The position numbers and the translations under genes were made by a program. DNA of 64,000 nt from an uncultured Senegalimassilia sp. (GTDB lineage Bacteria > Actinomycetota > Coriobacteriia > Coriobacteriales > Eggerthellaceae): contig CAKTWI010000009.1 of NCBI GenBank assembly GCA_934630815.1, positions 1-64,000 on the forward strand. Reading direction: 5' to 3'. Each line of letters starts with the position of its first letter. Position 1 is the stretch's first letter. The notes under the pieces were generated by a model, which was not told the origin of the DNA, did no database searches, and saw only the letters and a program-made list of their open reading frames with translations. Shown here one piece after another: positions 27,161-45,747 of the stretch.

Positions 27161-27175
27161 ACAGACGGGAGCGAC

Positions 27176-28915: not shown

Positions 28916-28918
28916 CCC

Positions 28919-29509: not shown

Positions 29510-29940
29510 TGAGCGTTCAGCAAATCAGCGTGTTTGTGGAAAGCAAGCCGGGGCATCTGTCCCGCGTGGTTGATGCGTTCACACAGGCAAACGTCAGCGT
29601 TCGAGGGTATAGCGCTTCGGACACCGGCGATTATGGCATCGTTCGATTCGTGGTCGATGACCCCGATCGCGCGCTGCAGGTTTTGCATGATATGAACTGC
29701 GCTGCCACGAAAACCTCTGTGCTGTGCCTTCGCCTTGAGGACAAGCCCGGCGAGTTGGCGCGCGTTTTGAAGGTGCTCTCCTCGTGCGGCATCAACGTGC
29801 AGTACAGCTATTCGCTGATTTCCACGTATATTTGCCTGTACGTCAAAGACCTCGATCAAGCGGAGAAGCTGTTGGCCGACCAGCCCGTCGAGCTGCTTGA
29901 TCAGAAGGATTTTCTTCACATGACGGCCGATATTGCCTAA
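29509..29940 (+). CDS. Double ACT-domain protein, copy 2
   Basis: A 143-residue protein of two ACT domains. The first is QISVFVESKPGHLSRVVDAFTQANVSVRGYSASDTGDYGIVRFVVDDP. The second begins LRLEDKPGELARVLKVLSSCGINVQYSYS. It is a paralogue of the protein at 24815 and sits in the same position relative to a PaaK gene, here between iorB and the ligase. Amino acid binding and control of Ior or PaaK activity is the likely role, by inference. Coupled to iorB by a one-base overlap. Confidence 0.9.
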   Translation: MSVQQISVFVESKPGHLSRVVDAFTQANVSVRGYSASDTGDYGIVRFVVDDPDRALQVLHDMNCAATKTSVLCLRLEDKPGELARVLKVLSSCGINVQYSYSLISTYICLYVKDLDQAEKLLADQPVELLDQKDFLHMTADIA

Positions 29941-29968
29941 CCTCGCACGTTAGATAAGGTGTTGTTTC

Positions 29969-31333
29969 ATGATCGATATCACGGAAAAGGGCGCGGCGCT
30001 TCGCGCGGCTTCTGAAGGACGCTTCGATGAGCTGCCTATTCATAACCCCTATGTGGAATGCTGCTCGCGCGAGCGCATCCGCGCCATCCAGCTTGAAAAG
30101 CTGATCGCGCAGGTGGAGTGGACTTATGAGCGCGTCGCGTGGTATCGCGACCAGATGGACGAGATGGGTGTGAAGCCCTCCGACATCAAGTGCTTGGAGG
30201 ATGTGCGAAAGCTTCCCTTCACCGACAAGCATGCACTTCGCAAGACGTTCCCGTATGGCATGTTCGCCGTTCCTTTGGACGAAGTCGTTGAGCTTCATTC
30301 GTCTTCGGGCACTACGGGAAAGCCTATCGTGGTGGGTTATAATCGCCACGACATGGACGTTTGGAACGATTGCATCATGCGTTTGGTGCAAATGGCGGGC
30401 GTCGTGCCTACCGATCGCGTGCAGATGGCGTTCGGCTACGGCATGTTCACCGGCGGTTTCGGCTTGCATTACGGCCTGCAGCGTCTTGGCTGCATGATGA
30501 TCCCTGCCGGCTCGGGCAATACCGAGCGTCAAATCCAGATGATCCAGGATTACGGCACCACAGTGCTGGTGGCTACTCCTTCCTACGCCATGCATATTTG
30601 CGAAGTCGGCGAGAAGATGGGCTATGACTGGGAGACCTCCACACTGCGCGTCGGTCTGTTCGGCGGAGAGCCGTGCCCTCCGGGTCTGAAGGCTGAAATC
30701 GAATCCCGTATGCATATCGTTTGTACGGACAACTACGGTCTGACTGAGGTCATGGGCCCTGGTGTGTCGGGCGAGTGCCTTGCCGAGCGCGATATGCAGC
30801 ATATCGCCGAAGACCATTTCCTGTGGGAAGTGGTAAACCCCGAAACCGGCGAGCCCGTTGCCGATGGCGAGATGGGCGAGCTTGTCCTTACCCCGCTCGA
30901 TAAGCAGGCTATCCCGGTTCTGCGCTATCGTACCCATGACTTGACGCGTGTGGTTACGGAGCCCTGCAAGTGCGGCCGCACTTCTGCAAGGATGCAGAAG
31001 GTCCGTTCCCGCTGCGACGATATGCTCATCATTCGCGGAACGAACGTGTTCCCCAGCCAAGTGGAAGACGTGCTTTCCGGCATTGACGGCGTCACCCCGC
31101 ATTATCGCATCGTCGTCGACAATGAAACGGGTTTGGATCGCATGGTCGTGCATGTGGAGCTCAAGCCTGAGGCGTTCAGCGATTCCTTTGAGGAAATGGA
31201 TAAGTTCCGCAAGCAAATCGAAAAGGAACTCAAGAGCGTTCTGCTTGTTGCCTCAAAGGTCAAGCTTGTCGAGCCTGGCGGTATCGAGCGCTCGTTCGGC
31301 AAAACGAAGCATGTTCAGGACCTGCGTAAGTAA
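29969..31333 (+). CDS. paaK: Phenylacetate-CoA ligase family protein (PaaK-like), copy 2
   Basis: A 454-residue adenylate-forming enzyme, paralogous to the one at 23509 with an N-terminal extension of about 20 residues. Motifs: LHSSSGTTGKPIVVGY, FGYGMFTGGFGLHYG, DNYGLTEVMGPGVSGE, LRYRTHDLTRV, and RSRCDDMLIIRGTNVFPSQVED. It is located directly downstream of iorAB and the ACT gene, which supports a role on the aryl-acetyl-CoA made by Ior, possibly recovering ATP in the reverse direction. That direction is inference. gluQRS starts at the base after its stop. Confidence 0.9.
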   Translation: MIDITEKGAALRAASEGRFDELPIHNPYVECCSRERIRAIQLEKLIAQVEWTYERVAWYRDQMDEMGVKPSDIKCLEDVRKLPFTDKHALRKTFPYGMFAVPLDEVVELHSSSGTTGKPIVVGYNRHDMDVWNDCIMRLVQMAGVVPTDRVQMAFGYGMFTGGFGLHYGLQRLGCMMIPAGSGNTERQIQMIQDYGTTVLVATPSYAMHICEVGEKMGYDWETSTLRVGLFGGEPCPPGLKAEIESRMHIVCTDNYGLTEVMGPGVSGECLAERDMQHIAEDHFLWEVVNPETGEPVADGEMGELVLTPLDKQAIPVLRYRTHDLTRVVTEPCKCGRTSARMQKVRSRCDDMLIIRGTNVFPSQVEDVLSGIDGVTPHYRIVVDNETGLDRMVVHVELKPEAFSDSFEEMDKFRKQIEKELKSVLLVASKVKLVEPGGIERSFGKTKHVQDLRK

Positions 31334-32293
31334 ATGATGCCGCAATCACATTTTTTCGAACCGAATGCGAACCGTCCCGTGGTGGGGCGGTTCGCTCCAT
31401 CTCCGACGGGTCGAATGCACGCGGGGAATATTTACGCTGCTCTTTCGGCTTGGCTGGTTGCAAAGTCCCAGGGCGGAACTATCGTTCTCCGTATCGAGGA
31501 TTTAGATCGCGACCGCTCGAAGGCGGAGTATATCAGCGGTGTCCAGCGAGATTTCGAGTTGTTGGGCCTTACCTGGGATCACGGTCCCTTCTTTCAGCAT
31601 GATAGGGATGAGGTTTATCTCGAGGCGTTCAGCGCTTTGGAGCGTAAAGGTCTGGTGTATCCGTGCTTCTGCACGCGTGCTGACCTGCATGCGGCATCTG
31701 CTCCGCATAGGGGAGAGAAATTCGTCTACCCTGGCACCTGCCGCGGTTTGTCTACGGAACAGATTGCCGAAAAGAGCTTGCGCAGGGCTCCAGCGCAGCG
31801 TTTACACGTGCCAAATGCCGTGTATTCTTTCGAGGATATGGTGCAGGGGCGCTATGAGCAGAACTTGGCTCACGAGTGCGGAGATTTCCTTATCCGTCGT
31901 TCTGATCAGGCGTTCGCGTATCAGCTTGCCGTGGTAGTGGACGATGCGGCTCAGGGCGTTACAAGCGTCGTGAGGGGCGTTGATTTGCTCTGCTCCACTC
32001 CTCAGCAGCTGTACTTGCAGGAACTGCTTGGGCTTGATCATCCTCACTATGCGCATATTCCCTTATTGGTTGCGGAGAAGAATCGCCGGCTTTCGAAGCG
32101 TGATCATGATGCCGGTATCGAAGAGCTGCTCGCAAGGTTCAAAACTCCGGAAGCGATTATCGGGCATATCGCGGGCATATGTGGACTTGCTCCAACGTGT
32201 GACCCCGCAACCCCTGAACAGCTGCTTGCTACGTTCGATGTGGAGCGATTGCCTGAGCTGTTTTGCGACCCGGTTCAAATTCCCTGGGGATAA
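31334..32293 (+). CDS. gluQ: Glutamyl-Q tRNA(Asp) synthetase
   Basis: A 319-residue paralogue of the GluRS catalytic domain that attaches glutamate to the queuosine base of tRNA-Asp. It has the class I HIGH-type motif GRFAPSPTGRMHAGN, the zinc site CFC plus Y-x3-C (YPGTC, Cys at about residue 137), and SKRDHD in place of KMSKS. It lacks the anticodon-binding domain of true GluRS, consistent with its length. ATG at 31334 or 31337 directly abuts the upstream ligase stop, and no strong ribosome-binding site is visible. It is the last plus-strand gene before the orientation switch. Confidence 0.92.
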   Translation: MMPQSHFFEPNANRPVVGRFAPSPTGRMHAGNIYAALSAWLVAKSQGGTIVLRIEDLDRDRSKAEYISGVQRDFELLGLTWDHGPFFQHDRDEVYLEAFSALERKGLVYPCFCTRADLHAASAPHRGEKFVYPGTCRGLSTEQIAEKSLRRAPAQRLHVPNAVYSFEDMVQGRYEQNLAHECGDFLIRRSDQAFAYQLAVVVDDAAQGVTSVVRGVDLLCSTPQQLYLQELLGLDHPHYAHIPLLVAEKNRRLSKRDHDAGIEELLARFKTPEAIIGHIAGICGLAPTCDPATPEQLLATFDVERLPELFCDPVQIPWG

Positions 32294-32427
32294 CGGCTGT
32301 TTGACTTATATCAGGGTTATAGGGGCAGTAGGGTATGGACTCGATTGTTTATCGTGGTGAGACAGTGGCAATTCAATAGCGTTGATGACCCCCCTTTTTT
32401 TTGATGCTCATGTTTTTCGGAGGGGCC

Positions 32428-32472
32428 ATGTTAGCTCTTGAAGCGATCAATCTAGATTCTGTTGCTTGGTGA
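32428..32472 (+). CDS. Very short ORF (14 codons) with strong ribosome-binding site
   Basis: GGAGGGG lies two bases before ATG. The product would be MLALEAINLDSVAW, ending inside the left arm of the palindrome. If the palindrome and one direct repeat are removed, the frame ends at TAG after 13 residues instead. It could be a leader peptide or chance. No downstream gene on this strand would profit from it. Confidence 0.2.
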   Translation: MLALEAINLDSVAW

Positions 32473-32540
32473 GGAGATGCGGGTAAATAGCTGGATCGAT
32501 TCGGTCCAGCTATTTACCCGCATCTCCTCACCTGTTGCTT
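32460..32540. mobile_element. 65-bp perfect palindromic insertion flanked by 8-bp direct repeats (MITE/REP-like)
   Basis: The left arm 32468-32495 (begins GGTGAGGAGATGC, ends TAGCTGGA) is exactly complementary to the right arm 32505-32532 over 28 bases. The 9-base centre can pair further to leave an ATT loop. TGTTGCTT occurs immediately left (32460-32467) and immediately right (32533-32540), as expected for a target-site duplication. There is no T run on either side, which argues against a plain terminator. It carries no gene, so it would depend on a transposase elsewhere. Confidence 0.6.
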
Positions 32541-32567
32541 AGATAAGCGTTTTGCCTTCTATACACA

Positions 32568-32604
32568 AAGACGACGATCTTTGATTTCCGAAGATCTCCG
32601 TCTT
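32568..32604. terminator. Bipartite stem between convergent transcripts
   Basis: AAGACG...CGTCTT and inner GATCTT...AAGATC pair with a small internal loop (ac/tc) and a 9-base apical loop. Tails are not T-rich, so this is only a tentative terminator for the 32634 gene on the minus strand. Confidence 0.35.
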
Positions 32605-32633
32605 GCATTCCTATAGGTTGTTGCGTAGTCGCT

Positions 32634-33074
32634 TTAAAAAACTATCGCCATCAGGCTGAGAAGCACGCATTGCACCAAGACGAAAACGGTTACACGAACA
32701 TTGCTGCTTTTGAACTTAGCTTTGTGGTCTTTTGAACCGACAAGCTTCACGTACAGTCGAACCACGGTGACCAGAAACGCCACCATGGCTACATCGCAAA
32801 CAAGGGAGAAGATCGTAGCAAGATCGGAAACGCCCATGGTTCGCCCGAGTTCGTAGAACAACAAGCTGGCATCAGTAGCGAAAAATGCGAAGGTAACGGC
32901 ACTTGCCAATTTGGCGATTTCCTTGGCCTTGGCTTCTTGTTGCTGTTTCTGATGATTTGCGCTCTCGTCATATTTGTAGACCAACTGAAGGTATTTTCCG
33001 TTCATCAGCTGAAAAGCCACAAGCAGCGAAACGGCTCCGAAAATCACAGCGAAAAAGATTTGAAGCAATCCCAT
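32634..33074 (-). CDS. Small four-helix membrane protein of unknown function
   Basis: A 146-residue protein I do not recognise. It has hydrophobic segments at about residues 3-22, 56-75, 85-107 and 124-145. A charged Gln/Lys/Glu-rich stretch (HQKQQQEAKAKEIAK) lies after the first helix and a Lys-rich loop before the last. GAGG precedes the ATG by eight bases, so translation is likely. It lies downstream of the menA-type gene on the same strand, with a 38-base gap. Lower GC than the operons to the left. Confidence 0.65.
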   Translation of the reverse strand: MGLLQIFFAVIFGAVSLLVAFQLMNGKYLQLVYKYDESANHQKQQQEAKAKEIAKLASAVTFAFFATDASLLFYELGRTMGVSDLATIFSLVCDVAMVAFLVTVVRLYVKLVGSKDHKAKFKSSNVRVTVFVLVQCVLLSLMAIVF

Positions 33075-33112
33075 TGAGCAAACCTCGTCTCTTTAAAGTA
33101 CTGAAAACCTCT

Positions 33113-34060
33113 TTAACATACGATAACAGAATTGCTTGCCAGAATTGCAGCGGCATACCAAGCACCTAAGGCGATATTCACCGAGCAAATCTGTGACATG
33201 GCCGCTTGTCGGCTTTGGGGCGCCAAGGGATTATTTCGCAAAGCTTTGAGAAGCGGATAGGTCGAAAGCAGCAAGAAGGGGAGCACGATTAGGCCTTGCG
33301 TGAAGAAGATGCCGACGATAAGGATGATAGCGACCAGCCATAGCCACATTACCGCGTGGTATAGCTTTCGGGCCTTGTCGCGATCAAGCAGCACGGATAA
33401 CGTACGGCGGTGGGCCAAGGCGTCTTTCTCGATATCGCATGTGTTGTTGGTGAACATGATCAAGCCGATGCCAAGGATTTCCGGGATTGCCCAAAGCACA
33501 GCTAGGGGAGTGAGCAACCCGGTGAGAACTTGGTAACATGCCAGAGGGATAAGGCCCCCCATGACGATGCCGCTGACAGCTTCTCCAAGAGGAAGGTAAG
33601 AAATCGGTGTTTTGCCTGCAGAATAGAGAACGACGAACACCGCGCCGATAGCACCGATTGCAAGAGGAATCAGTCCGGCGTGATAAATCACGTAGCCGCC
33701 CAGGATAAAAGCCGAAACCAGCAAACCGATAGCAAACACCAGCGCGCAAGTAGGATTCACATTGTTATAAATCAGCACAGCATCGGTGGGGTCTACGTCA
33801 TCGTCTGAGGAATCGGTGCCCTTGACGTAGTCGTAGTAGTCATTAAACGTGTTCACCGAGCTTTGCATGAGGATGCAAATACTAAGGAGCGCAACAGTTA
33901 AAGTCGCGGAAACCTGATAACCTGTCGCTATCGTCAGCGCGACGGCTATTGCAACAGGCACTATCGATGCCGGCCAAGTATGAGGTGCGGCAAGGTCGAG
34001 CGCCATCTTCGCGGTGAATCGATTATAGGAATGGTCAACAAGGTTCTGTGACTGGCTCAT
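33113..34060 (-). CDS. menA: 1,4-dihydroxy-2-naphthoate polyprenyltransferase-type UbiA enzyme
   Basis: A 315-residue, eight- to nine-helix UbiA-family prenyltransferase, most like MenA, which attaches the isoprenoid tail in menaquinone synthesis. The first aspartate motif is NTFNDYYDYVKGTDSSDDD and the second is NNTCDIEKDALAHRRTL. The RRTL sequence after the second motif is usual in MenA. No other menaquinone gene is in the window. Its ATG overlaps the stop of the upstream DUF2974 gene by one base (TAATG), so the two are translationally coupled. An alternative within UbiA would be another quinone-type substrate. Confidence 0.85.
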   Translation of the reverse strand: MSQSQNLVDHSYNRFTAKMALDLAAPHTWPASIVPVAIAVALTIATGYQVSATLTVALLSICILMQSSVNTFNDYYDYVKGTDSSDDDVDPTDAVLIYNNVNPTCALVFAIGLLVSAFILGGYVIYHAGLIPLAIGAIGAVFVVLYSAGKTPISYLPLGEAVSGIVMGGLIPLACYQVLTGLLTPLAVLWAIPEILGIGLIMFTNNTCDIEKDALAHRRTLSVLLDRDKARKLYHAVMWLWLVAIILIVGIFFTQGLIVLPFLLLSTYPLLKALRNNPLAPQSRQAAMSQICSVNIALGAWYAAAILASNSVIVC

Positions 34061-35247
34061 TACTGATTGCTTCGCTTTCTAGAATCGTTTTGCAACAGAC
34101 CGTTACCTGCGTCTTTGATGCGGGCTATGGTTTGGTTTTTCAGCGTTGCACCCAGACTTCCCAATGTTGAAATGAGGAATTGCTTGGTGTCGGCGTCAAG
34201 TTTTGAACCGGCTCCCATCACGGTTGCCATGTTCGCTCCCAAACGGGTTTGAAAATCTGCCCAGCTTGTTGCGTTGGTTTGCATGATCAAATCATATATG
34301 GTTTGAATAAAGCGCTCTCGCTCAGCAGGAGTTTTGCTTCGCAACCACGTATCCAACGCTTCATCGAAGAACTGCGCGGATGCATTCAAATCTTCTTGAT
34401 ATACAAAATCATCCCCATCAACCATCCATGAGAATGGGTGATGCTGAAAGATGGCAGAAGCTGACGACTGAACTACGCGATAGTCATCGCGACGTTCCAA
34501 AATCATTCCGAACGCAGAAGACTCGGGAACGAGTTTATGGAGTTTGCGGTCGTACTCTGCGGTAGTTCGACGAGGGGAGGGGTCTTCAAGGAACGAGGGC
34601 CCATCGTGATCGTATATAGCGATGATCCGATGATAGGTGCCTTCGTCGGTGCATAATGCCGCGTATTGGGCGAGGTTTCCGCCTTTTGAATGTCCACCGA
34701 GTATCAGCGGGCATGTCGTGGCTGATGATACACCGGAAACATAAGCGAGCGCGGAGCGCTGGGAGGGGATAACCGGTTTATATGATAGATTGAAATCCTC
34801 TTTCCAGCCCGTCAGCGTTCCGTCGGTTCCACGGAACGCAATATAGGCCATGATTCCTTGCTCGGACTCGAAGAAAAAAGTGCATGCCGAGAATTGCTTA
34901 TCAACCGCATCGGAGGTTTCGTCGACGAACAGTGCAACGGAAACATCTCGATAACGTCTGCTAGCCCTAATGGCCTGAATGAAGCGAAAGGTGTCCTCGG
35001 AGTCCTTCAGCCAGCTCCCTTCCGTAAGCAAGTTGGCTTCGCAAAGAGCTAGTATGTCAGACAGCAAGACGGGCGTTGAGGTATGCGTGTCCAAAGAGCA
35101 TCTAACCGCAGACAGTTCAGGTTTAAGAATAAGCTGTCCGAAATTGAAATAGCACAGCGATGAAAATACAAGTGAATCAACCGGGTTTACGGGTAATTCG
35201 ATAAACGTTCGCTGCTCGCGTTCAATATACGTTACGATTGAGTCCAT
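34060..35247 (-). CDS. DUF2974 (Mbeg1-like) alpha/beta hydrolase family protein
   Basis: A 395-residue protein with the DUF2974 pattern. The N-terminal part has FSSLCYFNFG; a middle segment has MAYIAFRGTDGTLTGWKEDFNLSY. The nucleophile elbow is GGHSKGGNLAQYAA (Gly-x-Ser-x-Gly), then YDHDGPSF and a HHPFSWMVDGDDF block. The fold resembles lipases, and the serine motif is intact, so hydrolytic activity is plausible, but substrate and role are unknown to me. It is coupled to menA by a one-base overlap. It diverges from the thioesterase gene across only 41 bases. Confidence 0.85.
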   Translation of the reverse strand: MDSIVTYIEREQRTFIELPVNPVDSLVFSSLCYFNFGQLILKPELSAVRCSLDTHTSTPVLLSDILALCEANLLTEGSWLKDSEDTFRFIQAIRASRRYRDVSVALFVDETSDAVDKQFSACTFFFESEQGIMAYIAFRGTDGTLTGWKEDFNLSYKPVIPSQRSALAYVSGVSSATTCPLILGGHSKGGNLAQYAALCTDEGTYHRIIAIYDHDGPSFLEDPSPRRTTAEYDRKLHKLVPESSAFGMILERRDDYRVVQSSASAIFQHHPFSWMVDGDDFVYQEDLNASAQFFDEALDTWLRSKTPAERERFIQTIYDLIMQTNATSWADFQTRLGANMATVMGAGSKLDADTKQFLISTLGSLGATLKNQTIARIKDAGNGLLQNDSRKRSNQ

Positions 35248-35288
35248 GGCTTCATTCTAATCGTTTTGCTAGGCACTTGGAGGTTGCT

Positions 35289-35720
35289 ATGAAAGTTTGC
35301 ACCGCGATACCAGTTCGATATGCGGAAACCGACAAGATGGCGGTCGTATATCATGCAAACTATTTGCTGTATTTCGAGGATGCAAGGACTCGCTTTCTTG
35401 AAGAGCTCGGATATCCGTATGCGCGTATCGAGCAAGCCGGCTACTTATCTCCGGTTGTTTCATTCGAAGTGCACTACGGAGAGCCTTTGCGATATGGTGA
35501 CGTTGCCATCGTGCGCACTTGGGTCAGTGAATCTCGTGGTACCAAAACCACGTATTCGTATGAGGTGTTCAGGCAGGGTGATGATGTGGAAACCGCTAAG
35601 CCTTGTGTTACCGGCACGAGCACTCACTGTCTTGTTGATGCGAACACGTTTAAGCCGGTAAGCATCAAGCGCACGCTGCCTGAACTGTTTGATCTCTATG
35701 AACAGGTTTGCGAACGATAA
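35289..35720 (+). CDS. YbgC/4-hydroxybenzoyl-CoA-type acyl-CoA thioesterase
   Basis: A 143-residue hotdog-fold thioesterase. The family signature is complete: VRYAETDKMAVVYHANYLLYFEDARTRFLEELG, with the catalytic aspartate in the ETD segment. Acyl-CoA hydrolysis is expected; the natural substrate is not apparent. The ATG at 35289 follows GGAGG with a six-base spacer. The longer frame from 35238 overlaps the divergent gene and is rejected. One of only two plus-strand genes right of 32.3 kb. Confidence 0.9.
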   Translation: MKVCTAIPVRYAETDKMAVVYHANYLLYFEDARTRFLEELGYPYARIEQAGYLSPVVSFEVHYGEPLRYGDVAIVRTWVSESRGTKTTYSYEVFRQGDDVETAKPCVTGTSTHCLVDANTFKPVSIKRTLPELFDLYEQVCER

Positions 35721-35795
35721 GTTTCGTGTATTAGCGAAAAACAAGTTCTTCCATATACAGCATCTGAATCTCACTGTGCGTTCTTGTGACATTAG

Positions 35796-36383
35796 CTAGC
35801 CTTGCAGCGCTTTCAGCAAGGCCCCATTGATGTCGCTGTCAACGATCCATGATTTATCAACCTTATGCAAGGTTACCGTGATTGGATCGTGTTGTACCGG
35901 TGCTGCCGCATTGATGAGGTCAAGTGTGTTTTCGGCAACTTCGGATTTCGTCTGCTCTTCAGTGTTGTTTGCACTCGCACTGGATTCAAAATCTTCCTTG
36001 GCTTTCTGATCAAGTGCGGCAAAGATGCTGTCCGTTGTTTTACAGGTGATGGTGAGATCGACGGTTGCCGTGTCCTTGTTGATATCGATAGGGCCGAGCG
36101 CGTAGTCAAACCCATCAAGGTAAGCAGAGATGTACGCTATAGGGTCTATTCCGATGTCTGAGATCTGCTGATTGGCATCGTCCGAAAGTAAGCTACTCAA
36201 TGTTGCTTCATCTTTTGCTTTGATGGCTTCCAGAGGTTGAGAGATAGCTTGCTCGATGCGTTCCTCGTTGGAGGGGCCGCAACCTGTTAATCCTAACAGC
36301 AGAAAACCAGCAGCGATCATTACTGCAGCGACGCAGACGACATGAATCGATATCGACTTGAAATCTAGCGTTTTAGAGTTCAT
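35796..36383 (-). CDS. Predicted lipoprotein of unknown function
   Basis: This 195-residue protein starts with basic and polar residues and a hydrophobic stretch (VVCVAAVMIAAGFLLLGL) ending in the lipobox LTGC. The mature part opens with GPSNEERIEQAISQPLEAIKAKDEATLSSLLS, reminiscent of DUF4878/NTF2-like lipoproteins that begin with a helix and a folded beta sheet. I cannot assign a family. The ATG at 36383 has AGGTGG upstream; a TTG 24 bases earlier is less likely. The candidate dif site lies 30 bases upstream of this start. Confidence 0.7.
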   Translation of the reverse strand: MNSKTLDFKSISIHVVCVAAVMIAAGFLLLGLTGCGPSNEERIEQAISQPLEAIKAKDEATLSSLLSDDANQQISDIGIDPIAYISAYLDGFDYALGPIDINKDTATVDLTITCKTTDSIFAALDQKAKEDFESSASANNTEEQTKSEVAENTLDLINAAAPVQHDPITVTLHKVDKSWIVDSDINGALLKALQG

Positions 36384-36413
36384 GGGCCGACCACCTTTGA
36401 AATTCAATTTGCT

Positions 36414-36441
36414 AGTTTACATAACATATATTATCAATGCT
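36414..36441 (-). other. Candidate dif site (XerC/XerD recombination site, replication terminus)
   Basis: Read on the minus strand the 28 bases divide as XerC arm AGCATTGATAA, 6-bp centre TATATG, and XerD arm TTATGTAAACT. The XerD arm is identical over 11 bases to the Bacillus subtilis arm as I recall it and close to the E. coli arm TTATGTTAAAT. The XerC arm ends in GATAA, as in actinobacterial sites. It lies between two genes, where transcription changes from mostly plus to mostly minus. ftsK, whose product activates XerCD at dif, is 18 kb away. Confidence 0.65.
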
Positions 36442-36465
36442 AAATACAGTTCAATCACACGGTTG

Positions 36466-36495
36466 ACGATAAGTCTGTATAAGCAGACATATCGT
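36466..36495. repeat. Inverted repeat next to the dif candidate
   Basis: ACGATA-A-GTCTG, six-base loop TATAAG, CAGAC-A-TATCGT: 12-base arms with one A/A mismatch. It may end transcription of the dut-side operon or belong to the terminus region; no T run follows. The rest of 36384-36614 shows no gene. Confidence 0.55.
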
Positions 36496-36614
36496 ATCAA
36501 ATACATGAACCCAGCTTGAACTTAGACAGTTGTGTTGTGCTTATAGAAACGATTTCGACCTTCCTGTCATGTATACGTTTCATGCCAAGCTCAGCTCAAT
36601 TCGGGAAATATCCA

Positions 36615-37097
36615 CTAACCCCATGTTGAGGTTCCTGCAGCGGTTCCTGCGCTCATATTGCCGGCAACGCTTGCGAAGTCTCCGCTCTGAAGCATCTGCT
36701 CGATTACGGGAAACATAATTGCAAAGGAAACCGCGTTGAGTGCTACGGCTACCAAGCAGATAACCAATGCGGTCCGTGCGGACTTGAGCATTCCGCGAGC
36801 TATGGATGCGGTCTCGTTAGTCTTTTGGGCAAGTGAGTGCAGTTTTCGATAAGCCAAAAACGCACAGATCACACCGATGGTCCCTAATAGCATTCCGCCT
36901 ACAAACAGGGACAACGGGCCCGCGATAAATGCAAATGTCGTTTGGGAGCGAGCTGACCTCAGCGTTTGTTCGTCTAAGGTGTTCGGCCTGAACTGATGGT
37001 TTCCGTCATTAGGGTCAGGTTGCGTTTCCGCGTTTCCATACGGCTCGTGATTTTCGTCAAGGTATGGGCTGGGACGGTTGTTATGTTGGTCGGCCAC
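36615..37097 (-). CDS. Small membrane protein of unknown function
   Basis: A 160-residue protein. The first 45 residues are polar, with many Asn, Pro, Asp and His. Two hydrophobic hairpin helices follow at about 54-83, then a linker with KLHSLAQKT, and another hydrophobic segment at about 110-133. The arrangement resembles DUF4190-type membrane proteins, without a decisive motif. It begins eight bases after the dut stop on the same strand and is probably the last gene of an nrdR-dut operon. The C-terminus is Gly/Ala/Ser/Thr-rich. Confidence 0.65.
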   Translation of the reverse strand: MADQHNNRPSPYLDENHEPYGNAETQPDPNDGNHQFRPNTLDEQTLRSARSQTTFAFIAGPLSLFVGGMLLGTIGVICAFLAYRKLHSLAQKTNETASIARGMLKSARTALVICLVAVALNAVSFAIMFPVIEQMLQSGDFASVAGNMSAGTAAGTSTWG

Positions 37098-37105
37098 GTT
37101 AGCTC

Positions 37106-37552
37106 CTAATTGCGGATTCCGCTGCTGCCGAAACCCGATTCTCCTCGTTGTGATTCCGTCAACTCCTCGACCTGCTCGAAGTTAATCGTAGGTACCGGCA
37201 TGACGATAAGCTGTGCGATTCGGTCACCGATTTCAATGGTAAATGAATTGTCGGGGTCGGTATTCAGCAAAATCACTTTCAGCTCGCCGCGATAATTGCT
37301 ATCAATAAGACCAGGTGCGTTGACGATAGAAATGCCGTGTTTCGCAGCTAAGCCGCTGCGAGGCAATACAAAACCCGCATATCCTTCTGGTAGCGCGATT
37401 GCCAGTCCTGTGGCGACCATAGCGTGTTCTTGCGGTTTCAACACAATACGCTCAACGGATCTCAGGTCTACTCCAGCATCACCGTTGTATGCCTTGTGAG
37501 GGATCTGAGCATCGCGTGAGAGAATTTTAATAGGGACGCGTACGTTGTCCAT
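37106..37552 (-). CDS. dut: dUTP diphosphatase
   Basis: The 148-residue trimeric dUTPase that hydrolyses dUTP to dUMP and prevents uracil incorporation into DNA. All five motifs are present in order: GDAGVDLRS, PRSGLAAKHGIS, NAPGLIDSNYRGELKV, IGDRIAQLIVMP, and the C-terminal RGESGFGSSG that closes the active site. It follows nrdR after two bases on the same strand, linking it to deoxyribonucleotide supply. Confidence 0.96.
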   Translation of the reverse strand: MDNVRVPIKILSRDAQIPHKAYNGDAGVDLRSVERIVLKPQEHAMVATGLAIALPEGYAGFVLPRSGLAAKHGISIVNAPGLIDSNYRGELKVILLNTDPDNSFTIEIGDRIAQLIVMPVPTINFEQVEELTESQRGESGFGSSGIRN

Positions 37553-37554
37553 CG

Positions 37555-38001
37555 CTACTTCAACCCCTCAAGAGCCGCAGCAAATTCCTCTACATTCTGA
37601 AAATCTTTGTATACGCTTGCGAATCGCACGTAGGCTACATCGTCAAGCTTCGCCAATCGCACCAAAGCCATGTCGCCAAGTTCTTTTGAGCCGATTTCGC
37701 TTTTAGATGCATTGCGAAGCTCAGCTTCTATACTATCGATCAATGCACCCAATTGCTCAGGAGCTATCGGTCGCTTAGCGCACGCAATGAGGAGACCTCT
37801 CATGAGCTTTTGTCTGTCGTAAGCTTCGGACGAACCATCGGATTTGATGATGATAAGCGGATTGTCGCCTAAGCGCTCATACGTGGTAAATCTTCGACCG
37901 CATTGGAGGCATTCCCGCCTGCGGCGGATGCTGCTGCCATCATCAGAAGGACGGGAATCAACTACTTTGGATTCTAAATTTCCGCATGCCGGGCATTTCA
38001 T
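37555..38001 (-). CDS. nrdR: Transcriptional repressor NrdR
   Basis: A 148-residue zinc-finger and ATP-cone repressor of ribonucleotide reductase genes. The zinc ribbon uses Cys3, Cys6, Cys31 and Cys34 (MKCPAC...CLQCGRRFTTYE). The ATP-cone follows from IIIKSDGSSEAYDRQKLMRGL. It senses ATP/dATP balance and binds NrdR boxes; none was identified in this window. Co-transcribed with dut. Located head-to-tail with the ORF at 38135, whose stop is 134 bases upstream. Confidence 0.96.
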   Translation of the reverse strand: MKCPACGNLESKVVDSRPSDDGSSIRRRRECLQCGRRFTTYERLGDNPLIIIKSDGSSEAYDRQKLMRGLLIACAKRPIAPEQLGALIDSIEAELRNASKSEIGSKELGDMALVRLAKLDDVAYVRFASVYKDFQNVEEFAAALEGLK

Positions 38002-38134
38002 ACAATCGCACTCCTTCGTTCGATGATATGTAGCCTAACATACAAGATATAGCGGTTTATACATTGTTACAAAAGAGTGCATCAAATCGTGACACAAGAT
38101 ATTGCCCTTAACGGAAGTGCGGATAAGCAATGAT

Positions 38135-38428
38135 TCACATAATTCCAGCGATGATGGTAAGCAATGCGAACAAGGTGATTGCGCCGGCGGTTTGAGCTGG
38201 AGTTGCGCGAGGTCCTGTTTGATGTGGCTGACGGAGGTCGCCACGTTGCCTGATACGTGCGTTAATGCATCGAGACTCGCCGCCAGGATGACAGGATGAT
38301 ATTTCGTCGACCTGCCGGGCGCTGTATCCAGATCCGGGAAATTGAATGATATGCGCAGATGAAACGCGTGCGTCTAGTTTAAGCGCCGCTGTGCCGCTGA
38401 TTGTCAAACGAGAATCACGGTGTTGCAT
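38135..38428 (-). CDS. SOS-controlled small ORF divergent from lexA, possibly frameshifted
   Basis: A 97-residue ORF behind the strong ribosome-binding site GGGGAGGAAAT, under a consensus promoter that overlaps both LexA boxes. It ends in a hydrophobic helix (AGAITLFALLTIIAGIM). The middle of the gene reads more like protein, with higher GC at third positions, one frame over. There it gives DLDTAPGRSTKYHP, then ILAASLDALTHVSGN, then a helical VATSVSHIKQDL. Two compensating frameshifts would join N-terminus, this middle and the C-terminal helix into about 100 residues. The location matches SOS cell-division inhibitors of other bacteria (YneA, DivS, Rv2719c), but no LysM domain is visible. Confidence 0.4.
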   Translation of the reverse strand: MQHRDSRLTISGTAALKLDARVSSAHIIQFPGSGYSARQVDEISSCHPGGESRCINARIRQRGDLRQPHQTGPRATPAQTAGAITLFALLTIIAGIM

Positions 38429-38446
38429 ATTTCCTCCCCTTTGCTC

Positions 38447-38476
38447 TTGCGTAGAACCTTTGTTCGCATATATAAT
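38447..38476 (+). promoter_or_regulatory. lexA promoter
   Basis: TTGCGT (38447-38452), an 18-bp spacer and TATAAT (38471-38476). One LexA box lies in the spacer and the second at the expected start of transcription, so the gene is autoregulated. Confidence 0.8.
38454..38467 (-). promoter_or_regulatory. LexA operator 1
   Basis: On the minus strand this reads CGAACAAAGGTTC (38466-38454), matching the Gram-positive SOS box CGAAC-N4-GTTY. It is the mirror image of operator 2. Confidence 0.85.
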
Positions 38477-38500
38477 AGAGCGAACAAAGGTTCATGTCAA
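38472..38500 (-). promoter_or_regulatory. Divergent SOS promoter for the ORF at 38428-38135
   Basis: Minus-strand TTGACA (38500-38495), a 17-bp spacer and TATTAT (38477-38472). Operator 2 fills the spacer and operator 1 lies just downstream of the -10. Confidence 0.75.
38481..38494 (+). promoter_or_regulatory. LexA operator 2
   Basis: CGAACAAAGGTTCA on the plus strand, at the lexA start of transcription. With operator 1 it forms a 12-base inverted repeat separated by 14 bases. Confidence 0.88.
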
Positions 38501-38548
38501 CAAAAAACAAACGGATGTTCGTTATAGCTCACCTCGAAAGGATGGCCC

Positions 38549-39187
38549 ATGACCGACAAGATCACCAAGCGCCAGCAGGCGGTGCTCGACGTCATCGAGC
38601 AATGCATCCGCGAAAAGGGCTTCGGTCCCACTGTTCGCGAAGTGTGTCAGGCTTTGGGGCTCTCCTCCCCTTCCACTGTGCACGTTCATTTAAAGGCGCT
38701 CGAGGAGAAGGGCCTTATCAAGCGCGATGCGCTGAAATCGCGATCGATAGCGCTTACCTACCCGCTCGACCATACCGAAGATGCTACGAATATCGTTCAC
38801 GCTCAGTTTGACGATATCGTGTCCGTACCATTGGTTGGGGACGTTGCGGCCGGAGTTCCCATCCTTGCCGAGCAGAACATCACCAACACTATGTCTTTGC
38901 CTATTGAAATCGTTGGCGATGCACCTTCTTTCATGCTGTCTGTGCATGGGGAAAGCATGATCGAGGCGGGTATCAATGACGGCGATTACGTCGTGGTCAA
39001 AGAGCAGCCGGTTGCAAACAATGGGGACATCGTTGTTGCCATAATCGACGATGGGGCTACGGTTAAGCGCTTCTATAAAGAACAAGATCATATTCGACTG
39101 CAGCCAGAAAACTCTTCCATGGATCCCATCATTACCACTGATTGTTCGATTGCCGGCAAGGTTGTCGCCGTGTTTCGCCGCCTATAA
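38549..39187 (+). CDS. lexA: LexA repressor
   Basis: The 212-residue SOS repressor. The N-terminal winged helix-turn-helix runs to about residue 70 (KRQQAVLDVIEQCIREKGFGPTVREVC). The self-cleavage site is Ala101-Gly102 in GDVAAGVPIL. The catalytic serine is Ser136 (HGESMIEAGI) and the catalytic lysine Lys173 (GATVKRFY). GAAAGGA lies seven bases before the ATG. It controls its own gene, the divergent ORF and, by its box, recA-recX. Confidence 0.97.
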   Translation: MTDKITKRQQAVLDVIEQCIREKGFGPTVREVCQALGLSSPSTVHVHLKALEEKGLIKRDALKSRSIALTYPLDHTEDATNIVHAQFDDIVSVPLVGDVAAGVPILAEQNITNTMSLPIEIVGDAPSFMLSVHGESMIEAGINDGDYVVVKEQPVANNGDIVVAIIDDGATVKRFYKEQDHIRLQPENSSMDPIITTDCSIAGKVVAVFRRL

Positions 39188-39271
39188 AAGGAATGCATGG
39201 GGCAGCTTCTGCAATTGGGAAGCTTGAGTTGACGGATCGCGTCGCCCAAGGATCTTATCCTGGTGACACAT

Positions 39272-39320
39272 AACAGAAGCCTTAATGCAAAATGGATGCA
39301 TTAAGGCTTCTGTTTATTTG
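39272..39320. terminator. Bidirectional terminator between lexA and hflX
   Basis: An 18-bp perfect stem starting AACAGAAGCCTTAATG (39272-39289) has a 7-base loop and its complement (39297-39314). TATTTG follows on the plus side. It separates two convergent genes. Confidence 0.9.
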
Positions 39321-39390
39321 GGTTCGTACGTGTGAACCTGCTATTGCGCAATTGGTTCTATGTTGCTGGTAAAGGTACAGACTGTCTGCT

Positions 39391-40704
39391 TTAATTATCC
39401 GAATCGCAGATTGCTTTGAACTCATCAACATAGGCTTTTGGCACCAACATGGTCAGATGAGTCCCGGTTTCGATATGCTCTTCAGTCAAGATTCTGCAAC
39501 GCTCGTGAGCCTTCGATACCAAATCACCGCGTTGGTACGGAACAACTACATCAAGGTGCGTGTCTTGAGCGGATGCTACATGTGCGATCCTATCGACAAG
39601 CTGATCTATTCCCTCCCCTGTTTCCGCTGATACGAGTAGCGCATCATAGCGATTGGCCAATGCTTCCTGTTGCTCGATCGGCAATAAATCGCACTTGTTG
39701 AAAACGAGCACCCTTGGTAAGGTTTGCGCATTGATCTGCTCCAAGACTTCTTCAACAGCCATGATCTGTTCTTCAAATTCGTCAGAAGAGGCATCGACCA
39801 CATGCAAAATCAAATCCGAGCCGGTGATTTCATCCAGCGTAGATTTAAATGCTTCAACCAAGGTGGTCGGAAGCTTCTGAATGAAGCCGACCGTATCGGT
39901 TAACGTGATTTCGCGTCCTTCGGGCAGTTCGTATTTTCTTGTAGTGGAGTCGAGCGTTGCAAATAATTTGTCGTATGCAAGCACATCGGCATTGGTGAGC
40001 CGGTTGAGCAAACTTGATTTACCAGCATTGGTATACCCCGCGAGCGAGACCTTAAACATCCCGCTTTCATACCTGCTCTCTCGTTGAACGGCTCGAACTT
40101 CAGCTAAATGCGCAAGTTCGCGTTTAATGGTGGTGATACGCTTGCGAACTAATCGACGGTCAACTTCAAGCTGGCTTTCGCCTTCGCCGAATCGGCTGCC
40201 TACGCCACCGCCCATGCGGTTTGAGGCTAAATGCGACCACATACCGCGAAGTCGAGGGAGCAGATATTGGTTCTGAGCAAGGCGAACTTGCAAACGTCCT
40301 TCTTTGGTCGTCGCATGAAGTGCGAAGATGTCCAAGATCAAAGCGGTGCGATCGATGACTTTTAAGTCGCGATCAACGGACTTCTCCAGGTTTGATTGCT
40401 GCGATGGCGTTAACTCATCATCGAAAATGATCAAATCCGCTCCAGTTGATCGGCAAAGTCGAGATATCTCCTCCACCTTGCCGCTACCCACAAAAGTCCT
40501 GGGATTTGGAGAATCAAGCTTTTGGGTTGTAACGGCAACCGTATCTGCTCCTGCGGTATCCGCTAATCGCTCAAGCTCCGCTAATGAAGATGAGACGTTC
40601 CAACGCATGCCGGGTCGTTCGACGCCAACAAGCACGGCCTTTTCCCTCTTCTCTTCAACAGTTGTTTTCGCGCCCTTAACTAAGACCGATTGATATTCCG
40701 ACAT
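39391..40704 (-). CDS. hflX: Ribosome-associated GTPase HflX
   Basis: A 437-residue GTPase that splits or rescues stalled ribosomes under stress. The N-terminal HflX domain contains GSGKVEEI and an ATPase-like glycine-rich GGGVGSRFGEGESQLE linker. The G domain shows G1 GYTNAGKSS, G3 DTVGFIQKLP, and G4 FNKCD. A helical and ferredoxin-like tail follows. GGAGAGGA precedes the ATG. The dapF terminator at 40782-40819 isolates it, so it needs its own promoter in the 75 bases upstream; none is obvious. Confidence 0.96.
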   Translation of the reverse strand: MSEYQSVLVKGAKTTVEEKREKAVLVGVERPGMRWNVSSSLAELERLADTAGADTVAVTTQKLDSPNPRTFVGSGKVEEISRLCRSTGADLIIFDDELTPSQQSNLEKSVDRDLKVIDRTALILDIFALHATTKEGRLQVRLAQNQYLLPRLRGMWSHLASNRMGGGVGSRFGEGESQLEVDRRLVRKRITTIKRELAHLAEVRAVQRESRYESGMFKVSLAGYTNAGKSSLLNRLTNADVLAYDKLFATLDSTTRKYELPEGREITLTDTVGFIQKLPTTLVEAFKSTLDEITGSDLILHVVDASSDEFEEQIMAVEEVLEQINAQTLPRVLVFNKCDLLPIEQQEALANRYDALLVSAETGEGIDQLVDRIAHVASAQDTHLDVVVPYQRGDLVSKAHERCRILTEEHIETGTHLTMLVPKAYVDEFKAICDSDN

Positions 40705-40781
40705 CGGTAATCCTCTCCGGTGGGTTCAAGCTGAAATGCGTACATTGGAATGGATTACGGCTTGTGCTTGATCTGGTCCCC

Positions 40782-40819
40782 CAAAATGAAAACAAGCGCA
40801 GGTTCATTCCTGCGCTTGT
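40782..40819 (-). terminator. Terminator of the miaB-miaA-dapF transcript
   Basis: The minus-strand stem ACAAGCGCAGG...CCTGCGCTTGT (40819-40792), loop AATGAA, is followed by TTTCATTTTGG. Confidence 0.88.
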
Positions 40820-40852
40820 CGATAGTAGCATAATGTATCAGATAATGAGCGG

Positions 40853-41773
40853 CTACAACTCAACGGTACCCTGGAAGGCTTCCGTGGCAGAACCCGTCAT
40901 CATCACATGATCATCGGCATCCCACTTGATATGAAGCGTACCGCCGCGCAATACGACATTGTTCTCCCTAGAAGCACGGCCGGTTAATGCTGCTGCCACA
41001 TTAGTGGCACACGCCCCGGTACCGCAGGCAAGGGTCTCGCCGCAACCGCGTTCAAACACGCGCATCGCAATGGCATCTTCGCCGACGTGAGCGAATTCGA
41101 CGTTGGTTTTCTCAGGGAACGCCGAATGGCTTTCGTAATATGCGCCGATTCGATTCAAATCCAGCGTTGCGAGACATTTATCGTTCGCGTTTACGAACAG
41201 TTCATCGGGCAGTGTGCTGAAATCGTCGATGAAGCAGATAGCATGCGGATTCCCCATAGAGACACACGTGAAGGCAAACGCCCCCCAGGGAGATTCGATA
41301 GCGCTGTCTTTTACGAAACCTGTACCTTCTTCGGTGTGAGCGTTTGCAGGAAGGTCAACCGGTACATCTTGCGGGTCGAGAACAGGATGGCCCATATCAA
41401 CGGTTGCAAAGGTCAACTTGTCATGCTTGTCTACGTCAAAGCTGATCGGTTTCGGACCCGCCAACGTGTCGGCCACGAAGGAGCCATCGCTTGCAAGTAC
41501 GAACCCGCGGTCCACGAGATACTTCGCAAAACAACGAACTCCGTTACCGCACATTTGAGCTAGCGTGCCATCAGCGTTGATGTAGTGCATGTATGCAGCA
41601 CACTCGGAGCGTTTCGAAGGGCGCACCATAATCACGCCATCTGCGCCGATGCCGAAATGACGATCGCACAGCAAAGCGACCTGTTCCTGCGTCAGCTCGA
41701 TATCTCGTGAAAAATCATCGATGAAAACGAAGTCATTGCCAAGACCGTGAAGCTTAACAAAATCCAATTCCAT
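40853..41773 (-). CDS. dapF: Diaminopimelate epimerase
   Basis: This 306-residue enzyme interconverts LL- and meso-diaminopimelate for lysine and peptidoglycan. Both catalytic cysteines are present: Cys75 in AQMCGNGVRCF and the second in GCGETLACGTGACA. The N-terminus LDFVKLHGLGNDFV is typical. The only ribosome-binding-site-like AAAGGAG is about 15 bases before the ATG, longer than usual, and an in-frame stop just upstream rules out an earlier start. Together with dapA and dapB at 58.6-60.5 kb, three lysine-pathway genes lie in the window. Confidence 0.96.
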   Translation of the reverse strand: MELDFVKLHGLGNDFVFIDDFSRDIELTQEQVALLCDRHFGIGADGVIMVRPSKRSECAAYMHYINADGTLAQMCGNGVRCFAKYLVDRGFVLASDGSFVADTLAGPKPISFDVDKHDKLTFATVDMGHPVLDPQDVPVDLPANAHTEEGTGFVKDSAIESPWGAFAFTCVSMGNPHAICFIDDFSTLPDELFVNANDKCLATLDLNRIGAYYESHSAFPEKTNVEFAHVGEDAIAMRVFERGCGETLACGTGACATNVAAALTGRASRENNVVLRGGTLHIKWDADDHVMMTGSATEAFQGTVEL

Positions 41774-41813
41774 GAGGGTTTACGCACGCTCCTTTAAGAA
41801 GGTTATATATGGA

Positions 41814-42791
41814 TTACAGTGTATCAATCAAGGCTAATGCATCGTCTGCAAGTGCGGCGGTATCCCCCGAATCTGCGCAAAGCCAATGAATCCGCGAATC
41901 TTTTCTAAACCACGTGCGCTGACGTTTGGCGTATCGGCACGTGGACACCTTTATGGATTCGATTGCCTCTTCCATGCTGGTTCGGCCATCAAGTGCAGCG
42001 ACTATCTCCTTGTATCCGATCGCCTGCGGCGCAGTGATTCCATCGCGGAAGCCAGATGCAAGCAAAGTTTCCACTTCTTGGATAAGTCCGTTGGCTACCA
42101 TGGAGTCAACACGTGTTCGAATACGTGCGCGTAAAACATCGGGGTCAACCGCTAACCCGACGAAAATTGCGGGGACCCATTGTGGTAAGGATTGGAGCCG
42201 TTGCTTTTGAACGGCGTAGCTATCTCCTGTTTCAAGCAGCTCAAAAGCGCGAACCACACGTTTGACATCTGCCGGAGGTATTAACTGGGCGCTCTTTGGG
42301 TCGCGCTGGTGCAGTTCGTTCCACAACCGTTCGGGGCCATGCTCTGCAGCGAATGCATTCCAGTGATTTCGGACTGGATTATCGATCTGCTCGCCATCGG
42401 GGAACTCATAGGCATCGATGGCTGCGCGAACGTAAAAACCAGTACCACCAGCCAAAATGCTGCGCTTGCCCTTTGACTCGATTTCTACGAAACTCTGACG
42501 CGCATACGTTTGGAACAAAGCCGCGGAGAATGGCTCCCCAGGATCGACCAAATCGAAGCCATAATGGGGTACCAGTCGCTCGCTCGCGGGAAGTTTGCCC
42601 GTTCCGATATCCATGCCGCGGTACACCTGCATGGAGTCGGCGCTTACCACTTCCCCATCCAAATGCGTTGCGATAAGTTGCGCGACATCGGTCTTCCCTG
42701 AAGCAGTAGGGCCTACCACGCAAATCACTGGTTGTGAGAGAGCTGCCACCGCCGCGTTTGCGGTTGCAGCAGTCTTTGAGGCGTTATTCAA
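41814..42791 (-). CDS. miaA: tRNA dimethylallyltransferase
   Basis: This 325-residue enzyme adds the isopentenyl group to A37 of UNN-reading tRNAs. The P-loop GPTASGKT is at residues 27-34, followed by VSADSMQVYRGMDIGTGKLP, and LAGGTGFYVRA. A C-terminal tRNA-binding part contains the FVGLAVDPDVLRARI segment. It overlaps the end of miaB by eight bases, so the two consecutive modification steps (MiaA, then MiaB methylthiolation) are encoded together, although in the reverse order of action. Confidence 0.96.
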   Translation of the reverse strand: MNNASKTAATANAAVAALSQPVICVVGPTASGKTDVAQLIATHLDGEVVSADSMQVYRGMDIGTGKLPASERLVPHYGFDLVDPGEPFSAALFQTYARQSFVEIESKGKRSILAGGTGFYVRAAIDAYEFPDGEQIDNPVRNHWNAFAAEHGPERLWNELHQRDPKSAQLIPPADVKRVVRAFELLETGDSYAVQKQRLQSLPQWVPAIFVGLAVDPDVLRARIRTRVDSMVANGLIQEVETLLASGFRDGITAPQAIGYKEIVAALDGRTSMEEAIESIKVSTCRYAKRQRTWFRKDSRIHWLCADSGDTAALADDALALIDTL

Positions 42792-44139
42792 CGATATCGC
42801 CGGCCAAATACCAGGTTTTTGCTTCGTTAATTTGAACGTTGACGATGCTTCCAGCTAATTGTTCGGGTGTTTTGCCGGCAGGAACCGGCGCATGTACCGT
42901 TTGGTTCTTCGGGCTTTTACCGGCAATAAGCAGCTCGTCTCGCTTCGATGAGCCCTCAACCAAAACCGGGATGGTCGTTCCCAGGTCAAGCTGGTTTTTC
43001 TCGAAAGCATGAGCCTGAACGATATCGACCAGGCGATCGAATCGTTTCTGAATCACCTCATGAGGGGTGTTATCCTCCATACTTGCAGCAGGAGTCCCCT
43101 CTCGCTTGGAATAAATAAAGGTGAATACCTGGTGGTACCCGACCTCATCGACCAGACGAGCCGTGTCCATGAAGTCTTTTTCGGTTTCGCCCGGGAATCC
43201 TACGATGATGTCGGTAGACAGGGCGATATCGGGGCAAGCATCGCGCAATTTGCTGACGAGCTCCCGGTAATGCGCCGAGGTGTAGCGACGATTCATCAGC
43301 TGCAAAATACGATCAGAGCCGGATTGCGCCGGGAGATGCAGTGCCGGCATAAGCGAACGCAGCGAGCCGAACTGTGCGATAACCTCATCGGACAGATCTT
43401 TGGGATGGCTGGTGGCGAAACGCAAGCGCTCAACCCCCGTCTCGTCAAGAGCTTTGAGGATTTGAGCGAAACGAGGGCTGCCATACAGGTCGCGTCCATA
43501 TGAGTTGACGTTTTGACCAAGCAGCGTGATCTCCTTCACACCAGCTGCTACATAACGTTCTGCTTCGGCGACAATATCTTCAATTGGACGCGATTTTTCC
43601 CGACCGCGCACGTAAGGAACGATGCAGTACGTGCAGAAGTTATTGCATCCAATGGTAATGGGCAGCCACGCAGCCCACGAATGTTCACGGCTTGTCGGGA
43701 GTTCGGTCGGAAAGGAGGAAGAAGCATCGAGCACCTCAACCTGATGACCGCCTTCTTCTATAGCTGCTTGAAGCAGATGCGGCAGCGAAGCTAAATTATG
43801 CGTGCCGAAGACCACATCAAGATGAGGGAGCTTTTTCGTCAGCTCATTACCATCGCGTTGGCCGATGCAGCCACCTACCGCAACGATTCTCTTGCTTAGC
43901 GGGGACCCGCTTCTCACGGGAGTGTTCTTCAGCGATGCAACCTGACCGTACAAACGAGTATCTGCCGCTTCGCGCACGCAGCATGTCATGTAAATCAGGA
44001 TATCGGCTTCCTCTACGGTGTCGACCATAAGGCCGCCGAGGCCTTCCAGCATGCCCGCAATACGTTCGGAGTCATGCTTGTTCATCTGGCATCCGAAGGT
44101 GCGGACGCAAAAAGTCATATTCATGAATGGTGTGTGCAT
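42784..44139 (-). CDS. miaB: tRNA-2-methylthio-N6-dimethylallyladenosine synthase
   Basis: A 451-residue radical-SAM methylthiotransferase acting on i6A37 of tRNA. The UPF0004 N-terminal domain has three cluster cysteines (FGCQMNKHDSE, MTCCVRE, VGGCIGQRDG). The radical-SAM motif is GCNNFCTYCIVPYVRGRE (C-x3-C-x2-C). A C-terminal TRAM domain follows. The start is uncertain: ATG at 44139, 44124 or 44118 are in frame and none has a clear ribosome-binding site. RimO at 50858 is its paralogue for ribosomal protein S12. Confidence 0.95.
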   Translation of the reverse strand: MHTPFMNMTFCVRTFGCQMNKHDSERIAGMLEGLGGLMVDTVEEADILIYMTCCVREAADTRLYGQVASLKNTPVRSGSPLSKRIVAVGGCIGQRDGNELTKKLPHLDVVFGTHNLASLPHLLQAAIEEGGHQVEVLDASSSFPTELPTSREHSWAAWLPITIGCNNFCTYCIVPYVRGREKSRPIEDIVAEAERYVAAGVKEITLLGQNVNSYGRDLYGSPRFAQILKALDETGVERLRFATSHPKDLSDEVIAQFGSLRSLMPALHLPAQSGSDRILQLMNRRYTSAHYRELVSKLRDACPDIALSTDIIVGFPGETEKDFMDTARLVDEVGYHQVFTFIYSKREGTPAASMEDNTPHEVIQKRFDRLVDIVQAHAFEKNQLDLGTTIPVLVEGSSKRDELLIAGKSPKNQTVHAPVPAGKTPEQLAGSIVNVQINEAKTWYLAGDIVE

Positions 44140-44190
44140 ATGGATATAGTTCCGATCGAATCGAGAATAACAGCGCTATGTGAAATGAAG

Positions 44191-44520
44191 TTACTCGCCA
44201 AGAGCGGAATCGGCGATTGGCGTGCCGTGCGTATATCGAGGCTCTACGGCGAAGCGGATGGCCGTGCGATATTCGCCATCGATCACGATGTCGGCAAATG
44301 AAGGAATGCAGGCGATCTCGATGCCGATAGGTGACAAGAATCCTCGAGAGATGGCGATCGCTTTCACGGCTTGATTCACGGCGCCGGCGCCGACAGCTTG
44401 GATCTCAACGCCAACGCCGTCTTTCACCATGCCGGCAATTGCGCCCGCAACTGATGCGGGGGAAGATTTTGAGGAAACTTTCAAACACCCTGATTCCGGG
44501 GCTTGTTGTTCGGCATTCAT
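44191..44520 (-). CDS. spoVS: SpoVS-like protein
   Basis: A 109-residue protein whose residues 12-97 match stage V sporulation protein S: LKVSSKSSPASVAGAIAGMV, GAVNQAVKAIAISRGFL, and a final RTAIRFAVEP. SpoVS is an Alba-like nucleic-acid-binding family, also found in non-sporulating bacteria. About 22 extra residues follow at the C-terminus. ATG 44520 is chosen over the upstream one because AAAGGTGA precedes it and the extension is not SpoVS-like. It sits between a GHKL ATPase gene and miaB, an order shared in part with Bacillus (rny-ymdB-spoVS, with miaB nearby). Confidence 0.93.
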   Translation of the reverse strand: MNAEQQAPESGCLKVSSKSSPASVAGAIAGMVKDGVGVEIQAVGAGAVNQAVKAIAISRGFLSPIGIEIACIPSFADIVIDGEYRTAIRFAVEPRYTHGTPIADSALGE

Positions 44521-45732: not shown

Positions 45733-45747
45733 AGTTGACGCCTTTCG

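Follow-up and report, generated by a model that had tools for sequence, protein, structure and literature searches.

A probable dif site of a Coriobacteriia chromosome, around which G-rich polar words converge

Introduction

A stretch of 64,000 nucleotides (hereafter the window) carries on its minus strand a 28-bp sequence, at 36414..36441, that raises a simple question: is this the chromosomal dif site, or a look-alike brought in by a mobile element or produced by chance? The first-pass annotation had named it a candidate dif site and had proposed that the window probably contains the replication terminus. Chromosome dimer resolution is anchored at dif, which also serves XerCD-using mobile elements as a landing site; with its form and position fixed in Coriobacteriia (e.g., the gut genus Collinsella) a terminus could be assigned in genomes whose skew is weak. 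No paper describing a dif site of Coriobacteriia was found among the open-access literature matches listed, judged by title and term counts; the 66 Actinobacteria covered by PMC3025954 (2011) may, as far as its accessible text goes, include Coriobacteriia (Table S1), and we therefore claim no priority for dif itself. We conclude, with a probability of about 0.9, that the 28 bp are the ordinary chromosomal dif site of a Coriobacteriia chromosome, i.e., a common housekeeping element of a class in which dif has been little examined. The reading is supported by a matrix of published dif sites, a Collinsella site near dut, converging polar words, and the gamma domain of the FtsK encoded in the window.

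Sequence, Layout and Position of the Site

Read on the minus strand, the site is AGCATTGATAA TATATG TTATGTAAACT (plus-strand reading, AGTTTACATAA CATATA TTATCAATGCT) and has the layout of an XerCD-type chromosomal dif of 28 bp: an 11-bp arm predicted to bind XerC (36431..36441), six central bases (36425..36430), and a conserved 11-bp arm predicted to bind XerD (36414..36424). Sequence, coordinates, strand and 11-6-11 layout were re-read from the window and are all as first annotated, and the claim that the XerD arm equals that of Bacillus subtilis agrees with the sequence printed in the accessible text of PMC3025954. The B. subtilis dif, also 28 bp long with an 11-6-11 layout, matches the window site at 20 of 28 positions; its XerC arm, however, is ACTTCCTAGAA and differs from that of the window. 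The dif of Frankia alni, which serves as the Actinobacteria seed in the accessible text of PMC3025954, has the same layout and is identical at 17 of 28 positions, with TTATGTCAAGT as its XerD arm; the GATAA at the end of its XerC arm is common to the window site and recurs in the Collinsella site described below and in other published sites (e.g., Myxococcus). The E. coli dif shares the layout and 18 of 28 positions, and its system also has an FtsK gamma domain and G-rich converging words. Four of the six pairs of the inner palindrome (positions 7-12/17-22) are present in the window site, compared with four in the dif of B. subtilis, five in that of F. alni and six in that of E. coli; PMC3025954, in its accessible text, sets "more than four" such pairs for dif.

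As the annotation had stated, the site is intergenic: it lies in a gap of 231 bases between two minus-strand ORFs, bounded by the likely ATG of a predicted lipoprotein gene (35796..36383) and by the end of the ORF at 36615..37097. The lipoprotein is recognized by an LTGC lipobox in the translation and by a weak, below cut-off match to DUF5105; its likely ATG is at 36383-36381, and the longest frame in the mechanical ORF list begins at a TTG (36407). The ORF on the other side matched no family above cut-off and gave weak matches to membrane-protein families.

Strength of the Match

We built a weight matrix from 31 published dif sites, comprising 29 of the 36 table rows of PMC2731167 (including E. 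coli), as available in its accessible text, and the B. subtilis and F. alni sites from that of PMC3025954. The site is the top match in the window with 25.2 bits, the next place reaching 7.1 bits when the site's own reverse reading (13.3 bits) is set aside, and it is single, with no second strong matrix match in the 64 kb. Among real sites a score of 25.2 bits is low: a single training site of the 31 falls below it (23.8), and the next stands at 29.0.

An alternative is that the site arose by chance as an AT-rich match within the low-GC region at 32-41 kb, possibly in a promoter region of the lipoprotein gene, whose likely ATG is 30 bp downstream. With the B. subtilis dif as sole query, 20 of 28 matches were reached by 5 of 400 first-order random sequences modelled on the local 10 kb and by 2 of 100 whole-window random sequences, so that support from the B. 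subtilis sequence alone is weaker than that from the matrix. The matrix score, in turn, was reached by none of 150 random 64-kb sequences of the local, AT-richer composition; the largest random score was 24.6, and the tail of the null distribution is thus not far below the site. A simple scan showed no sigma-70-like promoter at 36000-37000, and in Collinsella the position near dut and the strand are kept between different genes. Taken with these results, a chance match or promoter element is extremely unlikely. Identity to the E. coli dif alone is a poor detector here: in the window, position 54230 outscores the site (19/28 vs. 18/28), and in Collinsella, position 177265 outscores the dif-like site (20/28 vs. 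16/28).

A pattern search with AGTTTACATAAN6TTATCAATG matched one locus in the genome contig collection, in an Ignavibacteria MAG; by eye this match falls in a coding-looking stretch, and it was treated as chance (about 0.5 chance matches are expected, as estimated from the stated collection size). No Coriobacteriia contig of that collection was matched, and the viral contig collection gave 0 matches.

A Counterpart in Collinsella

The comparison with a relative draws on one record, Collinsella NZ_OY725717.1, which was the one Coriobacteriia record of the plasmid collection among the best 20 of 1291 matches to RecA and the best 20 of 92 matches to HflX (79.6% and 58.8% identity, respectively, over the aligned parts). 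The record, from PLSDB, is about 900 kb long and was deposited as circular "plasmid 6", yet it carries recA, ftsK, pnp and the dif-like site; from this gene content, the record most likely represents part of a chromosome. In this record of Collinsella aerofaciens the site, AAGTACGATAATATATCTTATGTAAGGT, is located on the minus strand at 28548-28575, between coaBC and dut. It scores 29.0 bits, the next match in 899,693 bases being 16.5 bits (its own reverse reading aside), and none of 80 random 100-kb sequences scored as well; its core, GATAATATATNTTATGTAANNT, occurs once in the 900-kb record, even when up to three mismatches are allowed.

The Collinsella and window sites are identical at 20 of 28 positions and have the core GATAATATATNTTATGTAA in common, whereas their first six bases differ, the central six bases are TATATC in place of TATATG, and the XerD arm, identical at 9 of 11 positions, ends in GGT instead of ACT. 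The distance to dut is 2.7 kb in Collinsella and 0.7 kb in the window, and the strand relative to the conserved genes is the same. The adjoining genes, in contrast, differ: in Collinsella they encode a DUF1836 protein and an FAD-dependent oxidoreductase, and the last two bases of the oxidoreductase gene overlap the dif-like site. When the flanking regions (1500 and 2000 bases) were aligned, the best alignment was 19 bp inside the site (95% identity, E 0.002), and the second best an unrelated 15-mer (E 0.009). As would be expected of dif, the site thus forms a conserved island close to the same conserved genes. To its right, the two genomes share the gene order dut, nrdR, lexA, hflX, miaA, miaB, rny, recX, recA, cinA/pgsA, rimO, yajQ, rodZ, ftsK, rnj and pnp, also with the same relative direction; pgsA and cinA are fused in the window, which in addition has dapF, dapA and dapB, genes that the corresponding Collinsella stretch lacks. 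On the left, coaBC is the sole gene matched between the two, and upstream of it the window has ileS, lspA and an rluA-type gene where Collinsella has other genes. From this gene order and the RecA and HflX identities, we take the window to be a piece of a Coriobacteriia chromosome, though probably not one of Collinsella.

Conservation of position also bears on the possibility that the site was brought in, or is used, by an XerCD-exploiting integrative element, as an attachment or pdif-like site, and is not the chromosomal dif. Such sites do occur in phage contigs: in L026 and L020 dif-like sites (242-269 and 6163-6190, respectively) lie about 1 kb (1.1-1.4 kb) from terminase large-subunit genes, and L025, related to L026, has one at 5804-5831. 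In the window, the neighbours that were searched are housekeeping or small membrane and lipoprotein genes, there is no second strong site, the Collinsella site lies near the same conserved genes, and polar words converge on the window site (see below), all of which makes an integrative element a very unlikely source, and a chromosomal dif the preferred one.

The three phage sites, in contigs with a GC content of 57-63%, sit in stretches without an ORF of at least 120 aa and resemble phage attachment sites at which the host XerCD may be used; ORFs were listed for the three contigs, and ten proteins of L020 and L026 were searched. The core GATAATATATNTTATGTAA was found in 31 IMG/VR contigs (L006-L036), compared as 28-mers, nine of which contain the full TTATGTAAACT arm; one contig (L029) agrees with the dif of B. 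subtilis in 26 of 28 positions.

Gene Direction, GC Content and GC Skew

Genes in the window were said to be mostly on the plus strand to the left of 32.3 kb and on the minus strand to the right, and our codon-usage gene calls, which are approximate and miss some low-GC genes, bear this out: 23 plus and 2 minus to the left of 32.3 kb, 0 plus and 2 minus between 32.3 and 36.4 kb, and 1 plus and 17 minus to the right of the site. Gene direction therefore switches at 32.3 kb and not at the site, whereas the polarity of the words described below switches around the site. The fall in GC that had been noticed at the site was found as well, from about 0.57-0.64 down to 0.47-0.51 at 32-41 kb; the low-GC dip is about 9 kb long (32000-41000) and climbs slowly rightward. 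Two strong inverted repeats, possibly terminators, were seen in this region: one just after the plus-strand block (32468-32532; 32-nt arms, 97% complementary, 1 nt between them) and one between lexA and hflX (39272-39314; perfect 18-nt arms and a 7-nt loop).

The cumulative GC skew of the window rises up to 40-48 kb, then dips and partially recovers, a weak signal that would fit a turning point. The right arm of Collinsella has mostly negative skew, as expected, and the 28 kb to the left of the site are negative in every 5-kb step, with no switch at the site. GC skew is thus weakly informative and alone not decisive; according to the accessible text of PMC3025954, dif and skew shift-points are close and need not coincide.

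Polar Words Converge around the Site

In the Collinsella arm to the right of 31 kb, GGGGGAG is present 92 times on the minus and 6 times on the plus strand, i.e., it points to the dif-like site, and to the left of the site the counts are 4 plus and 1 minus (left vs. right, Fisher p 2.3e-4). It is the most one-sided of the 25 top-ranked 7-mers in the record. Its best switch point is at 26971-32996, around the site at 28548, and was matched by 21 of 2000 permutations when the first 120 kb were used and by 2 of 2000 with the whole record; over those 120 kb, GGGGAG has its switch at 29618-29679, which is 1.0 kb away.

The window contains one GGGGGAG, on the plus strand at 14514, left of the site, as predicted. 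For the looser GGGNGAG, 11 plus and 2 minus occurrences were counted to the left of the site (1..36413) and 1 plus and 7 minus to its right (36442..64000), and for GGGGAG 6 plus and 2 minus to the left and 1 plus and 6 minus to the right, so that on both sides most words point to the site. The left-right difference of GGGNGAG (p 0.0022) is the smallest p among 30 letter permutations, and GGGNGAG is the most polar of its permutations in Collinsella too; two others flip the same way in the window (GAGGNGG, p 0.010; GGGNAGG, p 0.020), and GGGANGG leans the opposite way (p 0.07). Together, the 36 places of GGGNGAG and GGGGAG give a switch interval of 34668..38434, which brackets the site and was equalled by 1 of 2000 permutations; GGGNGAG alone switches at 34668-48902 (6 of 2000). 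With a set of six words taken from Collinsella, the switch falls at 37347-37774, at a distance of 0.9 kb. The counts in the window are low, several sets of words were tried, and GGGNGAG and GGGGAG are partly confounded with gene direction. In the window as in Collinsella, the reversal of word polarity falls at the site or no more than about 1 kb from it.

The words of the better known systems were also counted. The SRS word of B. subtilis, which we take to be GAGAAGGG, has four occurrences in the window (left 1:0, right 1:2), too few to judge, and is present 28:11 in the Collinsella arm. The KOPS of E. coli, presumably GGGNAGGG, gives 6:2 to the left and 0:2 to the right of the window site and 64:37 in the Collinsella arm, where GGGGGAG is the strongest word.

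The switch of words and genes might also reflect local operon transcription only, with the terminus elsewhere, an explanation that is compatible with a dif at this place. That gene direction changes nearby, at 32.3 kb, and that GC skew is weak would fit it. In the right arm of Collinsella, however, GGGGGAG ignores gene strand: the ratio of words pointing toward the site to those pointing away is 45:1 in minus genes, 27:1 in plus genes and 20:4 outside called genes, by gene calls that were made here, are approximate and were not compared with the annotation. As the ratio holds on both gene strands, transcription is not the source of this bias. Of the GGGNGAG and GGGGAG words of the window, four fall between 32.3 kb and the site (33278, 33505, 34574 and 34668); all are plus and oppose the local genes, which are minus. 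We therefore consider an origin in transcription only unlikely. The proposal of a terminus in the window is best taken to mean that the window contains dif, where the presumed FtsK motifs converge.

FtsK, Xer Recombinases and a Proposed Mechanism

The presumed partner of the site is encoded in the window itself: an FtsK DNA translocase (54122..56662, minus strand) with 4TM, alpha, motor and gamma domains, a domain set that is also found, gamma domain included, in the Collinsella FtsK. The C-terminal gamma domain of the E. coli FtsK reads KOPS and activates XerD. A contact between FtsK and XerD is also given in the accessible text of PMC3025954.

By analogy with E. coli, we infer that XerCD would bind and recombine at the site and that words of the GGGGGAG class, which meet there, may orient FtsK. 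An odd number of crossovers between sister chromosomes would yield a chromosome dimer; septal FtsK would then be loaded directionally by G-rich polar words of the GGGGGAG/GGGNGAG class, pump DNA from both sides toward dif, and stop there. Its gamma domain would activate XerD on TTATGTAAACT, and XerC on AGCATTGATAA would complete the exchange across the 6-bp centre.

GGGGGAG is a testable candidate for the FtsK-orienting word of Coriobacteriia, which looks related to, and distinct from, KOPS and SRS; a limited search of the open-access literature found no description of it in this role. A wider generalization, that the terminus of Coriobacteriia is marked by a dif of core GATAATATATNTTATGTAA, with FtsK guided by GGGGGAG (or the looser GGGNGAG), differing from both KOPS and SRS, and with word polarity locating dif more sharply than GC skew, is put forward tentatively, at slightly less than even odds.

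No XerC or XerD gene was seen among the window genes searched. The Collinsella record has one Xer-type recombinase gene at 95.1-96.0 kb, 67 kb from the dif-like site, which scores 305.2 bits with the XerD model and 296.5 bits with the XerC model, below both curated cut-offs.
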